Made by a program: the position numbers and the translations under genes
NCBI RefSeq assembly: GCF_017565305.1
Contig: NZ_JAGEKP010000010.1
Coordinates: 1-64,000 of the forward strand
Direction: 5' to 3'
From: Leifsonia sp. TF02-11
GTDB lineage: Bacteria > Actinomycetota > Actinomycetes > Actinomycetales > Microbacteriaceae
DNA length: 64,000 nucleotides
In this document: positions 15,713 to 64,000 of the stretch, piece by piece
Position numbering within the stretch: the stretch's first letter is position 1
Layout of the letters: every line of letters begins with the position of its first letter
The notes under the pieces: model-generated
What the model saw: only the letters and a program-made list of their open reading frames with translations
Database searches by the model: none
Told to the model about the DNA's origin: nothing

Positions 15713-16204
15713 ATGGTGTCCTTTGCCGATGTCTCTGTCACCGATGCGACCGCCCACCGGATGCTGGCCGACTACTTCGCCGAGCGGGCCGAGACCTTTC
15801 CCGCCTCCCAGGGCGCGTATCGCACGACGTTCCCCGACCCCGGCCAATTCGTCCCGCCGGCCGGGGTGTTCCTGCTCGCGTACGATGACGGCGAGGCCGG
15901 CTGCGGGGGTGTCCGCGAGCTGAGCGTGCCGCTCTCCGACACCGAGGACGGCGAGCAGATCGTCCGCTACGAGATCAAGCATCTCTGGGTGGCTCCCGCG
16001 CACCGCGGCCAGGGCATCGGCCGCGCGATCCTGGCCGAACTCGAGCACCGCGCCCGCGGCTTCGGCGCCACCGAGGTCGTCCTCGACACGAACGTGAGCC
16101 TGGAGGCCGCAGGCAACCTCTACCGCTCGCACGGCTACGAGAGCATCCAGCCCTACAACGAGAACCCGAACGCGACGGACTGGTTCCGCAAGCGGCTCCG
16201 CTGA
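15713..16204 (+). CDS. GNAT family N-acetyltransferase
   Basis: A 163-residue acetyltransferase. The acetyl-CoA loop reads HRGQGIGRAIL near residue 98; VVLDTNVSLEAAGNLYRSHGY is the usual motif B region. The substrate is unknown. It is divergent from dapB with only 57 bp between starts, which leaves space for overlapping promoters. Its stop codon falls inside the first unit of a 17-bp tandem repeat. Confidence 0.88.
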   Translation: MVSFADVSVTDATAHRMLADYFAERAETFPASQGAYRTTFPDPGQFVPPAGVFLLAYDDGEAGCGGVRELSVPLSDTEDGEQIVRYEIKHLWVAPAHRGQGIGRAILAELEHRARGFGATEVVLDTNVSLEAAGNLYRSHGYESIQPYNENPNATDWFRKRLR

Positions 16205-16248
16205 GTATTCGACCCCGCTGAGTATTCGGCCCCGCTGAGCAATCGGCC
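16198..16248. repeat. Three 17-bp tandem repeats at a tail-to-tail junction
   Basis: Three direct copies of CCGCTGAGTATTCGRCC; the third carries CAA for TAT. The first copy contains the last codon and stop of the GNAT gene. The facing gene ends 20 bp further on. No T-rich or palindromic element accompanies it. Confidence 0.85.
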
Positions 16249-16267
16249 CCGCGGGGGCGCCGTCCGA

Positions 16268-19028: not shown

Positions 19029-19058
19029 GCCGAGGCAGCGAGCGGCCCTCACGTGGCT

Positions 19059-19101
19059 AACGGAGGAGATCCGGCCCATCCCGAGCCGGATCTCCTCCGT
19101 T
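19059..19101. terminator. 17-bp perfect hairpin in the tetR/AKR tail-to-tail gap
   Basis: Perfect inverted repeat AACGGAGGAGATCCGGC (19059-19075) and its complement (19085-19101) with a 9-nt loop. No T run follows. Located 30 bp after the tetR stop between convergent genes, it fits a bidirectional I-shaped terminator. Confidence 0.6.
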
Positions 19102-19240
19102 CACTGCGTTTCGGGGTGCCACGACGTCGCGACTCCTCCGTTAGCCGCGCTTGTCGCCAACGGAGGAGATCGCCCGCGACACGCCCGGGGTCGGCGGTCA
19201 ACGGAGGAGTTCCGGAGCCTTTGGGGCCGAATCTCCTCCG
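19059..19240. repeat. Cluster of six CGGAGGAG motifs in alternating orientation
   Basis: The word AACGGAGGAG, or a shortened form, occurs six times in about 180 bp. Forward copies start near 19059, 19159 and 19200; reverse copies end near 19101, 19141 and 19240. Pairs form three hairpins: a 17-bp perfect stem, a 10-bp stem (19132-19141 with 19159-19168), and a 14-bp stem with two mismatches (19202-19215 with 19227-19240). The region contains no gene. Confidence 0.85.
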
Positions 19241-19253
19241 GTGGCGACGCGGG

Positions 19254-56477: not shown

Positions 56478-57305
56478 ATGGCCGCACACGAACACGCGAG
56501 CGCGATGCTCGCCGTGTCGACGGTCATCTTCGCGCTGCGCTCGGACGAGCAGACCGGCGGCGAGCCCCAGGTCTGGCTGCCGCTCGTGCGCCGCATCCGC
56601 GACCCGTACGAAGGATGCTGGGCGCTCCCGGGCGGTCCGCTCCGAGTCGGCGAAGACCTGGCCTACGCGGCCGCCCGGACGCTGGGCGACACGACCGGGC
56701 TGACTCCGAGGTACCTGGAGCAGCTGTACACGTTCGGCGACGCCGTGCGCTCCCCCGACGCCGCCGACAGCGTCGAGCGAGTCGTGTCGATCGTCTACTG
56801 GGCACTGGTCGGCAGCGCGGAAGCCGAGCAGGCGACCGCGGGCGAGAACGTCGGCTGGTTCGCCGCCGACGACCTCCCCCGGCTGGCCTTCGACCACAAC
56901 GTCATCGTCGAGTACGCGCTCTGGCGGCTGCGCACGAAGATGGAGTACTCCCGCATCGCCCACGCCTTCCTCGGCGAGCGCTTCACGCTGGCGCAGCTGC
57001 GCGAAGTGCACGAGGCCGTGCTCGGCCGGCCGCTCGACCCGGCGAACTTCCGGCGGACCATCGAGGCCTCCGGCGCCGTCGTCCCGACCGGCGACTACCT
57101 GACGGGGACGCGCCACCGGCCTCCCCGGCTCTACCGCTACAACGACTCGATCGACCTCGCCGACGCGGGGCCGCTCCCCCGCCAGCAGCCTCCCTACGGA
57201 TCGCGCCAGGCACCCGGACCTGCCCAGACCCCCCGACCGGCCCAGACCCCCCGACCTGCCCAGACCCCCGAACCACGTCCCACCCCGGAAAGCGAGCAGT
57301 CATGA
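56478..57305 (+). CDS. nrtR: Nudix-related transcriptional regulator of NAD synthesis (NrtR)
   Basis: A 275-residue regulator: Nudix domain (residues 8-145) followed by a winged-helix (about 155-230). The Nudix box keeps its glycines and first Glu (GGPLRVGED) but the RExxEE catalytic core reads RTLGDT, so hydrolysis is probably lost, as in NrtR regulators that only sense ADP-ribose. The C-terminus has an extra Pro/Gln/Thr tail with three 6-residue repeats. GGGAGG precedes the ATG. The stop overlaps the nadA start (ATGA), so it probably regulates its own operon. Confidence 0.85.
   Translation: MAAHEHASAMLAVSTVIFALRSDEQTGGEPQVWLPLVRRIRDPYEGCWALPGGPLRVGEDLAYAAARTLGDTTGLTPRYLEQLYTFGDAVRSPDAADSVERVVSIVYWALVGSAEAEQATAGENVGWFAADDLPRLAFDHNVIVEYALWRLRTKMEYSRIAHAFLGERFTLAQLREVHEAVLGRPLDPANFRRTIEASGAVVPTGDYLTGTRHRPPRLYRYNDSIDLADAGPLPRQQPPYGSRQAPGPAQTPRPAQTPRPAQTPEPRPTPESEQS
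57216..57269 (+). repeat. Three 18-bp tandem repeats in the nrtR C-terminus
   Basis: Three copies of an 18-bp unit close to CGACCTGCCCAGACCCCC encode repeated PAQTPR peptides after the regulator's winged-helix domain. Copy number may vary among strains without breaking the frame. Confidence 0.85.
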
Positions 57306-60149: not shown

Positions 60150-61003
60150 CCCGCCAGACCATCCATGACGTCGTCCGAGCCGCTCTTGCCGAGGACGCGC
60201 CGTGGGGAGACCTGACCAGCGAGCTGCTCATTCCCGAAAGGGCATATGCCACCGCGCGGCTCTCCGCTCGCGAGCCCGGGACGTTCTCCGGAGGCGCGGT
60301 CTTCGCCGCCGCGATGACGCTCACGGACCCGGCGATCGAAGTCGAGCTGGCTGTCGCGGACGGCAACGCCTTCGAGGCGGGCGACACTCTTGCGACGGTG
60401 AGCGGGCCGGCGCGCTCGGTGCTCCAGGGCGAGCGGGTGGCGCTCAACTTCGTGCAGAGGATGTCCGGGATCGCGACGCTCACGGCGTCGTTCGTCGCCG
60501 AAGTCGCGCACACGTCGGCGCGGATCGTGGACACCAGGAAGACCACGCCCGGCCTGCGTGCCTTCGAGCGTCATGCCGTGCGCAGCGGCGGCGGCCATAA
60601 CCACCGCTACTCCCTCTCCGACGCGGTGATGGCCAAGGACAACCACCTCGCGATCCTCACCGCCCAGTCCGGGCTGTCGGTGACCGATGCGCTCCGACGG
60701 GTGCGCTCCGAGCTGTCGCACACCACGCACCTGGAGGTGGAGGTGGACCGCATCGACCAGATCGAGCCGGTGCTCGCCGCCGGAGTCGACACGATCATGC
60801 TCGACAACTTCACGCTGGACGAGCTGCGCAAGGGCGTCGCGATCGTCGGCGGCCGAGCGATCGTGGAGGCCAGCGGCAACGTGAGCCTGGCCACCGTGCG
60901 CGAGATCGCCGAGACCGGGGTCGATGTGATCTCCGCAGGGGCGCTCACGCACAGCGTCCGCTCGCTCGACCTCGGACTGGACGTGGTGCTGGAGAACGTA
61001 TGA
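60143..61003 (+). CDS. nadC: Nicotinate-nucleotide pyrophosphorylase NadC
   Basis: Converts quinolinate and PRPP to nicotinate mononucleotide. The 286-residue protein has the family motifs DTRKTTPGLR near residue 130, KDNHL near 170, and LEVEVDRIDQ and EASGNVSL in the barrel. It overlaps nadB by 7 bp and the cysteine desulfurase by 4 bp. Confidence 0.96.
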   Translation: MLTRQTIHDVVRAALAEDAPWGDLTSELLIPERAYATARLSAREPGTFSGGAVFAAAMTLTDPAIEVELAVADGNAFEAGDTLATVSGPARSVLQGERVALNFVQRMSGIATLTASFVAEVAHTSARIVDTRKTTPGLRAFERHAVRSGGGHNHRYSLSDAVMAKDNHLAILTAQSGLSVTDALRRVRSELSHTTHLEVEVDRIDQIEPVLAAGVDTIMLDNFTLDELRKGVAIVGGRAIVEASGNVSLATVREIAETGVDVISAGALTHSVRSLDLGLDVVLENV

Positions 61004-62151
61004 CCAGCAGCCTCTACCTCGACGCGGCCGCGACCTCCGCGGTGCGCCGTGACGTGCTGGAAGCGATGTGGCCGTACCTGACCGGCGACTTCGGCAACCC
61101 CTCCAGCCATCACGCCGTCGGCGAGTCCGCGGCGCGGGCGCTGGCGGACGCCCGGGCGACGGTCGCCGAGTGGCTCGGCTGCCGGGCCTCCGAGATCGTC
61201 TTCACCTCGGGAGGCACCGAGGCCGACAACCTCGCGATCAAGGGGATCGCCCTCGGCGCACCGCGCGGCAAGCACATCGTCACGACGCCCATCGAACACG
61301 AGGCGGTGCTCGCGTCCGTCGACCACCTGGTGCGCCTGCACGGCTTCGAGGTCTCCCTGGTGCCGGTCGGGCGCGATGGCATGGTCTCCCCCGCCGACTT
61401 CGCCGCGGCTCTGCGCCCGGACACCACGCTGGCGAGCGTGATGCTCGCCAACAACGAAGTCGGCACCGTGCAACCCGTGGCGGAGCTTGCGGCTCTCGCC
61501 CACGAGCACGGTGTCCCGTTCCACACCGATGCCGTGCAGGCCGCCGGTTGGCTCCCGCTCGACGTGCGCGAACTCGGCGTCGATGCACTGAGCGTGTCCG
61601 GTCACAAGATCGGGGCTCCCAAGGGCATCGGCGCGCTCTTCGCGCGTGGCCGGCTCGCCCTCGAGCCGGTGGTGCACGGGGGCGGTCAGGAGCGCGGGCG
61701 CCGCTCCGGAACCGAGAACGTGGCAGGGGCCGTCGCCCTGGCTGCGGCGGCGCGCCTGTCGATGCGCGACCGGGAGGCCAACGCGGCCCGCGCCTCCGCG
61801 GCACGGGACGCATTCGTCGCCGCGGTCGTCGCCGCGACCCCGGGCGCGCAGTTGACCGGGCACCCGTCCGAACGCCTGCCCGGCAGCGCGTCGTTCGTCT
61901 TCCCCGGCACCAACGGCGAAACAGTGCTGCTGGAGTTGGAGCGACGCGGGATCGTCTCCTCCAGCGGATCCGCCTGCGCTGCCGGCAGTGAGGACGCCTC
62001 GCACGTGCTCCTCGCCCTCGGCTACGACGAGGACATCGCGCGAACCGCCGTCCGGTTCTCGTGGGGCGCCGACGTCACGGAGGCCGACCTCCTCACCGTC
62101 GCCCCGGCCGTCGCCGACGCCGTGCGCGAGGTCTCCGGCCTCGCCTCCTGA
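61000..62151 (+). CDS. Cysteine desulfurase (NifS/IscS type) of the nad operon
   Basis: A 383-residue PLP enzyme that moves sulfur from cysteine to iron-sulfur clusters. The PLP lysine is in VSGHKIGAPKG, and the catalytic cysteine is C326 in SSSGSACAAGS. Its start overlaps nadC (ATGA), which points to assembly or repair of the NadA cluster, as known for NifS-like proteins encoded with nad genes. Its stop codon supplies the first base of the repeat array that follows. Confidence 0.93.
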   Translation: MTSSLYLDAAATSAVRRDVLEAMWPYLTGDFGNPSSHHAVGESAARALADARATVAEWLGCRASEIVFTSGGTEADNLAIKGIALGAPRGKHIVTTPIEHEAVLASVDHLVRLHGFEVSLVPVGRDGMVSPADFAAALRPDTTLASVMLANNEVGTVQPVAELAALAHEHGVPFHTDAVQAAGWLPLDVRELGVDALSVSGHKIGAPKGIGALFARGRLALEPVVHGGGQERGRRSGTENVAGAVALAAAARLSMRDREANAARASAARDAFVAAVVAATPGAQLTGHPSERLPGSASFVFPGTNGETVLLELERRGIVSSSGSACAAGSEDASHVLLALGYDEDIARTAVRFSWGADVTEADLLTVAPAVADAVREVSGLAS

Positions 62152-62500
62152 GATTCGTGACGAATCTCACGATTCGTGGCACGAATGTCGCGATTCGTCA
62201 CGAATGTCTGCGGGCGAGCCGGCGCCATCGCGTTGGCGCATGCCGAAGATTCGTGACGAATCTCACGATTCGTGGCACGAATGTCGCGATTCGTCACGAA
62301 TCTCGACGCCCGAACCTCGCGCTCGTCGCGGCGGCGGGCCGGAGATTCGTCACGAATGTCGTGATTCGTGGCACGAATGTCGCGATTCGTCACGAAGCTC
62401 GACGCCCGAACCTCGCGCTCGTCGCGGCGGCGGGCCGGAGATTCGTCACGAATGTCGAGATTCGTGGCACGAATGTCGCGATTCGTCACGAATGTCTGCG
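62151..62500. repeat. 96-bp tandem array of ATTCGT palindromes
   Basis: Four 58-bp cores start at 62151, 62247, 62343 and 62439, an exact 96-bp period. Each core holds three palindromes: ATTCGT-S-ACGAAT, ATTCGTG-G-CACGAAT and ATTCGT-C-ACGAAT, with centres exactly 20 bp apart (first trio 62159, 62179, 62199). Eleven of the twelve are perfect apart from the centre base; one has a terminal G. The 38-bp spacers after cores 2 and 3 are identical; the one after core 1 is different. The rest of the gap to 62591 (about 90 bp) shows only a GATAGTGTG stretch that could hold the MFS promoter. Confidence 0.93.
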
Positions 62501-62591
62501 CGTTTATTCCGGGTTACGCGGAGAGTGAACGCGGGGGCGAGTTCACCTGTGCGCAACCCGCGATGTCGGCGGTCATGGATAGTGTGAACCG

Positions 62592-64000
62592 GTGACTGAG
62601 AAGACCTCACCTGCGCCCACCGACGCCTCCGACGCCGCCGCGCTCGATCAGTCCCGGGGGGACACGAACACCGGCACCACCGACACCACCGAGCGGGTGA
62701 CGGAACGCCCGCGCATCGCGCCGCGCGACCAACGCGTGATCTGGCTGCTGCTCGCCGCGACGTTCGTCGTGATCCTCAACGAGACGATCATGAGCGTCGC
62801 CCTGCCGAAGCTCATGGACGACCTCCACATCGACGCGCTCGCCGCGCAGTGGCTCTCGACCGCGTTCATGCTCACGATGGCGGTCGTCATCCCGATGACC
62901 GGCTTCCTGCTCCAGCGTTTCACCACCAGGCAGGTGTTCATCACCGCCATGTCGCTGTTCTCGCTCGGCACGCTCGTCGCCGCCCTCGCGCCCGGATTCG
63001 GGCTGCTCGTCGGGGCGCGCGTCATCCAGGCGTGCGGAACGGCGATCATGCTCCCGCTGCTGATGACCACGCTGATGACGCTCGTGCCGCCCGCGCTGCG
63101 CGGTCGCACCATGGGCAACGTCTCGATCGTGATCTCGGTCGCGCCGGCCATCGGCCCGACCATTTCCGGCGTCATCCTCAACTTCCTCGCCTGGCGCTGG
63201 ATCTTCTTGATCGTGCTCCCGATCGCCCTGGTGATGCTGCTCATCGGCATCCGCTTCGTCGAGAACGTGACAGAGACCGAGAAGAGCCGCATCGACGTGC
63301 TCTCGGTCATCCTCGCGGCGTTCGGCTTCGGCGGCCTGGTCTACGGGCTGACGCTGAGCGGCGAGACCGGCGCGGCAGCGGCCGGCAGCGAGGTCATGCT
63401 CTGGGGATCGCTCGCCGTGGGCGTCGTCTCGCTCGCCGCGTTCATCACGCGTCAGCTCCTCCTGCAGCGCACCGACAGGGCTCTGCTCGACCTGCGCACC
63501 TTCCGCAGCCCGATCTTCACCGTCGCCATCGTGCTGATGGCGACCACCACGGCCTCCCTGTTCGGGGTGATCATCGTCCTGCCGCTCTACCTGCAGCACG
63601 TGCTGCACCTGGATGTGCTCGGCACCGGCCTCCTGCTGCTGCCGGGCGGTCTCGTGATGGGTCTCGCCGCTCCGTTCGTCGGCCGGCTCTACGACCGGTT
63701 CGGTCCGCGCGTGCTCGTGGTGCCCGGCGCCATCCTGGTCAGCCTGGTGATGTGGTCGCTCACGATGGTGACCGAGACCACTCCGGTCTACTTGGTCCTC
63801 ATCGCCCACATCACGATGAGCCTCGGCCTCGCGCTCATGTTCACACCGCTGTTCACCGCGGGGCTCGGCGCGGTGCCCCCGCATCTGTACTCGCACGGCA
63901 GTGCGATCGTCGGCACCATCCAGCAGGTCGGCGGCGCCGCCGGCACCGCGCTGCTCGTTGCGGTGCTCTCTGCGCAGACGGCGGCGCTCGCGGCGGGCGG
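62592..64000 (+). CDS. MFS drug exporter, DHA2 (EmrB/QacA) family (cut by window edge)
   Basis: The first 469 codons of a 14-helix major facilitator. A ~45-residue Thr/Asp-rich N-terminus precedes helix 1 (VIWLLLAATFVVILNETIMS), whose LNETI resembles the DHA2 motif D1. Motif A-like FLLQRFTTRQVF and motif C-like APAIGPTISG are present. It starts at a GTG at 62592. Substrate unknown. The upstream palindrome array may or may not control it. Confidence 0.9.
   Translation, partial: MTEKTSPAPTDASDAAALDQSRGDTNTGTTDTTERVTERPRIAPRDQRVIWLLLAATFVVILNETIMSVALPKLMDDLHIDALAAQWLSTAFMLTMAVVIPMTGFLLQRFTTRQVFITAMSLFSLGTLVAALAPGFGLLVGARVIQACGTAIMLPLLMTTLMTLVPPALRGRTMGNVSIVISVAPAIGPTISGVILNFLAWRWIFLIVLPIALVMLLIGIRFVENVTETEKSRIDVLSVILAAFGFGGLVYGLTLSGETGAAAAGSEVMLWGSLAVGVVSLAAFITRQLLLQRTDRALLDLRTFRSPIFTVAIVLMATTTASLFGVIIVLPLYLQHVLHLDVLGTGLLLLPGGLVMGLAAPFVGRLYDRFGPRVLVVPGAILVSLVMWSLTMVTETTPVYLVLIAHITMSLGLALMFTPLFTAGLGAVPPHLYSHGSAIVGTIQQVGGAAGTALLVAVLSAQTAALAAG

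Follow-up and report, generated by a model that had tools for sequence, protein, structure and literature searches.

Phased palindromes at gene ends in Leifsonia: a candidate REP-like element, conserved as DNA and probably bound by protein

The sequence analysed here (the window) is a 64,000-nucleotide stretch of DNA from Leifsonia sp. TF02-11, near the end of which a class-V aminotransferase gene (61000-62151, forward strand; cysteine desulfurase-like, Pfam Aminotran_5) is followed by a codirectional MFS transporter gene that begins at 62592 on the forward strand and runs off the window at 64000. nadC lies upstream of the intergenic region, preceded by two genes that we take to be nadA and nadB. 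One base pair past the TGA stop codon of the aminotransferase gene (62149-62151) begins a tandem array of four palindrome trios, and the MFS gene starts 98 bp past its end. The trios occupy 62153-62205, 62249-62301, 62345-62397 and 62441-62493 with a period of exactly 96 bp, and the palindrome centres are 20 bp apart within every trio (62159, 62179 and 62199 in the first, and so on), which confirms by coordinates the spacing of the four cores and of their three palindromes given in the original prediction.

Pattern matching resolves each trio into two outer palindromes, both versions of the 13-mer ATTCGTSACGAAT (A), around a distinct 15-mer palindrome, ATTCGTGGCACGAAT (B), that is unlike A. 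In the first trio the A, B and A palindromes lie at 62153-62165, 62172-62186 and 62193-62205; in the second at 62249-62261, 62268-62282 and 62289-62301; in the third at 62345-62357, 62364-62378 and 62385-62397; and in the fourth at 62441-62453, 62460-62474 and 62481-62493. Seven of the eight A copies are exact, the last palindrome of the third trio being an imperfect copy that ends in G (ATTCGTCACGAAG). The array had been described as twelve ATTCGT palindromes; the four trios stand, but the A pattern matches eight sites, the trio middles being a different 15-mer. With up to 2 mismatches allowed, these are eight window sites against 0.88 expected by chance, and none of 100 shuffles of the window reached that number (maximum 4). 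The trios are separated by 43-bp spacers (62206-62248, 62302-62344 and 62398-62440), of which the second and third are identical and the first differs, as had also been noted. The best Rfam match in 61900-62700 reached 21.1 bits, far below its gathering score of 50, no T-run intrinsic terminator was found in 61900-62800 (0.6 expected in shuffles), and a sigma-70 promoter scan found none. Elsewhere in the window, short tandem arrays of CGGCCCCGCTGAGTATT (3.5 copies) and CCCCGACCTGCCCAGACC (3.2 copies) at 16193-16252 and 57213-57286 are shorter or absent in the related genome G026.

The array belongs to a family of repeats dispersed through its own genome (G000), where a 53-bp unit pattern has 108 matches, the B word with one mismatch allowed has 106 forward matches, and pairs of A within 31 bp number 119, against 0 for a reversed control pattern. 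The trio query matched 15 of 60 genomes, its own included, all of one genus, and the three named genomes that carry exact A-B-A units are likewise Leifsonia (L. shinshuensis DP-L11, a Leifsonia MAG and Leifsonia sp. Leaf336). A-A pairs were found in 20 of 28 Leifsonia genomes, and searching 14 of these 28 with the 53-bp pattern added G006, G012 and G018, giving 23 genomes with palindrome pairs or units. The five others (G004, G007, G011, G017 and G022) had no unit in the A-A pair and 53-bp pattern searches, so Leifsonia can do without the system. Of 398 evenly sampled Microbacteriaceae, matches came from 9 of the 10 Leifsonia and from 2 of the 388 others, with one stray match each. Units per genome range from 0 to 333; the highest number belongs to G014, with 0-90 units in the other 13 genomes searched with the 53-bp pattern, and some of its units form arrays with a palindrome every 40 bp. 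The ATTCGTSACGAAT pair had no match in viral contigs and the window array none in phage or plasmid records. A literature search found no description of a Leifsonia repeat of this kind, and a text search for ATTCGTGACGAAT returned a single match, in a Methylococcus paper.

Compared across genomes, the 53-bp unit is a dyad. Its two outer palindromes, each 13 bp long and conforming to ATT-YG-NNN-CR-AAT, are centred exactly 40 bp apart; between them lies a third palindrome of 15 bp or, in many cases, just a pair of A/T-rich triplets in the matching positions. A/T triplets thus recur about every 10 bp, with centres at unit positions 2, 12, 21, 33, 42 and 52. In other species the middle palindrome is missing and the outer pair is still 40 bp apart; in these two-palindrome units the ATT and AAT of the trio are replaced by mostly A/T triplets at positions 20-22 and 32-34. 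The palindromic words themselves differ among species (ATTCG with a TSA, TGC or GCA core; ATTTG with GAC, GCG, CGC and others), and two unit classes coexist in G012, G018 and G025; units of two subfamilies also stand side by side. Among 448 distinct neighbouring palindrome pairs no more than 130 bp apart in the fetched loci, 195 are at exactly 20 bp and 138 at exactly 40 bp (333 of 448), and this fixed geometry is retained across species with different words, the reversed control pattern giving 0 matches. Search of the genome and its relatives did not find the word scattered without phasing, and the 20- or 40-bp register is kept in related species despite a changed middle, changed spacers and a changed word; the outcome that the original prediction named as refuting a binding site was thus not observed.

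At individual orthologous sites, the units vary in number and in word. G026, which is about 89-93% identical to G000 across the window, has at the window site just one unit, with a different word (ATTTGCGGCAAAT ... ATTCGCCGCAAAT), in place of the four trios, and its counterpart of the four trios at C2:142206 in G000 is one trio with an imperfect middle. In G023 the stop codon of the orthologous gene is immediately followed by a two-palindrome unit, and no unit is present at the orthologous window site in G027 and G021. Of the terminal inverted repeats and target-site duplication expected of a MITE of a DDE transposon, the dyad ends could supply the former, and comparison by eye at this one site revealed no clear duplication. 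Another lineage-specific set of palindromic words differs in a similar fashion at one intergenic site of the window: AACGGAGGAGAT and ATCTCCTCCGTT repeats lie in 19033-19246, and the orthologous place in G026 (about C1:960638-960857) holds CTCCGGAG words. Given these different word sets, Leifsonia may quite generally exchange the word while keeping the site. A long inverted repeat starting GCCGAAGGGCACGTAAACGCCCCCAA is present at about C1:1012383-1012443 in G026, the orthologous place in G000 holding other sequence.

In the loci examined, the units lie at the ends of genes. Among 61 classified unit clusters, drawn from stretches of G000 and G023 and from named loci, 34 are between convergent genes, 27 between codirectional genes and none between divergent genes, as compared with 95 convergent, 271 codirectional and 158 divergent among 524 background gaps of at least 60 bp in the loci, a background that includes the unit-bearing gaps and comes mostly from loci chosen for holding units. 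Genes were called with a simple finder based on codon composition, which was looked over on the window; three clusters overlapping a predicted gene and four at edges were left out. In 24 of the 27 codirectional clusters the unit is closer to the preceding stop codon than to the following start (2 are not so, and 1 is a tie). In four cases a predicted gene ends 8 bp inside a unit, the ATTCGTGA of which would then supply the TGA stop.

Constraint within units was assessed between two related species, G012 and G018, where 29 of 31 G012 loci have a counterpart, 2 have none, and 40 units could be aligned, 11 others being lost to array change or to an edge. Changed sites in the 40 aligned orthologous units amount to 7/800 in the arms, 17/240 in the arm core, 31/480 in the spacer, 27/239 in the triplets and 46/358 in the centre, as compared with 409/4104 in the flanks and 1685/29776 in the remainder of the aligned loci, which is mostly coding. 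The arms differ from the flanks with a Fisher p of 3.5e-24 in a sample that favours pattern-matching units, because the G012 loci and most of the G018 loci were picked by pattern match. The 7/800 includes L279, a misaligned multi-unit array that supplies 4 of the 7 arm changes; leaving it out reduces them to 3. A smaller count over 14 pairs of loci, in which 16 units could be aligned and 1 could not, gave 3/320 for arms and 126/1718 for flanks, and all 10 units listed for G012 contig C3 have a counterpart, with one arm substitution and one 1-bp arm insertion among them. Part of what looks like conservation of the arms could come from gene conversion among copies.

The triplets change about as often as the flanks (27/239 against 409/4104), and only the kind of change differs: with L279 left out, A-T swaps account for 11 of 23 triplet changes and 13 of 361 flank changes (p 4e-9), the number of independent swaps being below 11 since some came in blocks (three in L275). 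In three orthologous arms (L274, L276 and L289) the core is the exact reverse complement of its counterpart, as expected if a symmetrical dimer reads the core either way, and these whole-core reversals suggest template switching at small palindromes as their source.

Among known elements, a clear resemblance is to the REP, BIME and REPIN sequences, which PMC3733652 and PMC3116915 describe as short, high-copy palindromes forming inverted dyads at preferred spacing and, together with flanks, tandem arrays, placed between convergent or unidirectional genes near stop codons, with several types per genome, lineage-specific distribution, and GTAG and CGTC superfamilies. Leifsonia units are likewise short, high-copy and intergenic, form inverted dyads at a preferred spacing and also tandem arrays, lie between convergent or unidirectional genes near 3' ends, and come in several lineage-specific types per genome. 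The statement that no named element has this form thus needs qualification: in placement and copy number the units match the REP-type extragenic palindromes set out in PMC3733652, but two defining REP features are absent. A fixed GTAG or CGTC tag is missing, the unit-internal bases beside the palindrome being GTCG, GTGC, CKCG and others (the outer flank was inspected by eye), and none of the 28 Leifsonia genomes has a match for the RAYT transposase (Y1 tyrosine transposase, PF01797) that goes with the GTAG class, a control being found in 5 of 14. Since tag and RAYT were looked for and not found, we do not file the Leifsonia family as a REP member. The difference extends to arms exactly 40 bp apart, to A/T triplets on a 10-bp register, to little sign of selection for hairpin pairing within subfamilies, and to confinement, in the searches made, to one actinobacterial genus. 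According to PMC3733652, CGTC repeats are likewise without a dedicated transposase, and the roles proposed for REP-type palindromes are in supercoiling, termination and message stabilisation; the string 'actinobacter' has no occurrence in the main text of that paper.

One alternative is that the units are a selfish, REPIN- or MITE-like mobile element, spread by a putative transposase and found at gene ends because insertion there does least harm. Such an element would account for the swings in copy number from 0 to 333 per genome, for two subfamilies coexisting side by side, for the identical unit at two distant G012 loci (C1:1579820 and C1:2070314), and for a window site whose units differ among G000, G026 and G023 and are lacking from G027 and G021; REPs of other phyla also have the same gene-end placement, according to PMC3733652. 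Resident arms, however, are kept (7/800 changed, against 409/4104 in the flanks), unlike those of a dead insertion, and the traces that mobility might leave were not seen: the Y1/RAYT family, which alone was searched for, is present in 0 of 28 genomes, the window site that was inspected has no clear target duplication, and viral contigs lacked the ATTCGTSACGAAT pair just as phage and plasmid records lacked the window array. We regard a purely selfish origin as unlikely, if far from negligible.

A second alternative places the function in RNA, where the hairpin of a transcribed unit would protect or terminate messages at gene ends. The location fits, and the four trios can form RNA structures (folding energies between -20.7 and -29.2 kcal/mol, z between -1.4 and -5.0, with stems of up to 24 pairs), but the palindromes themselves are what makes them foldable. 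REP-type inverted doublets fold as hairpins; the Leifsonia units have doublets at 40 bp and can fold, but selection on pairing within subfamilies was not supported. In the two subfamilies present in G012 and G018 (31 and 37 distinct units) the halves of the dyad vary almost independently, with z near 0 for most dyad pairs and extremes of -2.0 and +2.9, the latter belonging to one pair only (19-35, subfamily beta); these are 68 distinct units among 75 listed, from two genomes that hold 58 and 61, after removal of one exact G012 duplicate, five G018 repeats or near-repeats of G012 units, and one identical unit. Among 86 units of the trio type, matching fell short of expectation at five of the six variable spacer pairs (z -2.8, -1.2, -1.2, 0.7, -3.5 and -2.9). 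Several dyad pairs did covary in a mixed set of 185 non-trio units (z 12.1 at 4-50 and 5.9 at 22-32), which took in 75 units listed for G021 and G002 (56 and 37 in all), and this signal is attributed to the mixing of subfamilies and species. A long hairpin, as RNA or as cruciform, had been the leading idea on the strength of the mixed set and was abandoned when the covariation fell to about zero within subfamilies. With no T-run terminator in 61900-62800, and with an inter-unit spacing that follows the DNA helix, which an RNA would not need, a role in RNA is quite improbable.

The spacing between units bears on a third alternative. Over 114 distinct spacers, a period of about 10.2 bp was the best of ten tried (R 0.45, nominal p 1e-10), a phasing that is strong per distinct spacer sequence and marginal when each distinct distance is counted once (p 0.04-0.07). 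The distances cluster near 25, 35, 43-46, 55, 66 and 76 bp, roughly half a turn off the 20/40 register, and the 43-45 bp class is strong only once the G012 and G018 loci are included. Helical phasing of neighbouring units, the A/T phasing of about 10 bp inside the unit and the convergent gene ends would all suit a topological site, at which DNA gyrase or a general nucleoid protein wraps DNA where converging transcription piles up positive supercoils. Gyrase has a preference for certain wrapping sites, and BIMEs are bound by gyrase, IHF or DNA polymerase I. A general enzyme, on the other hand, should have no use for 13-bp words that change from one species to the next, and five species are without units; this reading, too, we hold to be improbable.

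Scattered 13-bp palindromes would also be compatible with a chromosome-organising site read by a ParB/Noc- or MatP-like protein. Noc/NBS, SlmA/SBS and MatP/matS share with the Leifsonia family dispersed palindromic sites of similar length, whereas the Leifsonia units consist of two or three phased palindromes restricted to gene ends, a restriction that such a role does not require, and the words of the three systems differ from those of Leifsonia. In the four genomes evaluated (G025, G018, G023 and G019), out of ten with a located dnaA, this gene lies in the largest unit-free gap, which measures 0.6-1.15 Mb and extends mainly to one side; the per-genome P values of 0.0009-0.017 are not independent. 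For G023 and G019 the count used a single arm word, and the G023 gap contains two units with a different word; in G016, single palindromes occur within 0.2 Mb on both sides of dnaA. A gap near the origin is moreover the opposite of the distribution of Noc sites, and this role is very doubtful.

As to a local operator of the nad genes or the MFS exporter, between which the array lies, the original proposal is hardly credible, for the array is one among 108 pattern-matched units in the genome, those in the loci examined being at gene ends, and its site varies freely among relatives, a close one bearing a unit with a different word.

We therefore lean, on balance, towards reading the window array as a REP-like element specific to Leifsonia, found at gene ends and here repeated four times in tandem, that appears to be conserved as DNA and is probably bound by protein, each unit probably receiving several protein dimers. 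A protein-bound DNA complex is favoured by the constraint on resident arms, the A-T swaps in the triplets, the little sign of selection on pairing and the helical phasing taken together. That phased palindromes would form a multi-dimer binding site rather than an ordinary terminator, as the original prediction had it, is supported at the level of sequence by the spacing, the near absence of covariation within subfamilies, the constraint and the terminator scan. Oligomeric regulators such as the Lrp-type octamers have regularly spaced operator boxes, and the Leifsonia units resemble these in having several palindromes of 13-15 bp whole helical turns apart, but differ in lying at gene ends, not promoters, and in tens to hundreds of copies.

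For such an element the following mechanism can be proposed. A putative sequence-specific protein would place one dimer on each palindrome, the dimers would touch the A/T triplets through the minor groove along one face of a bent helix, and a symmetrical complex would thereby form at gene ends. The position at gene ends suggests a boundary or topological role, most likely that of a two-sided boundary that would block read-through from converging genes or hold supercoils, and extra tandem units, as in the window, would strengthen the site.

As a more tentative proposal, Leifsonia may mark many of its gene ends with a protein-bound boundary, a bent and symmetrical complex of several dimers seated on the 53-bp dyad, in a bacterial insulator or roadblock system of which we found no described counterpart. 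Since the geometry has been retained where the recognised word has changed from species to species, proteins and sites would then have co-evolved as a series of pairs across the genus. The family provides sequence evidence for resident palindromes that are conserved as DNA sites and helically phased without the usual transposase, and the question of what REP-type palindromes do becomes testable. If confirmed, this would be a bacterium that marks the ends of its genes by a dedicated nucleoprotein complex.
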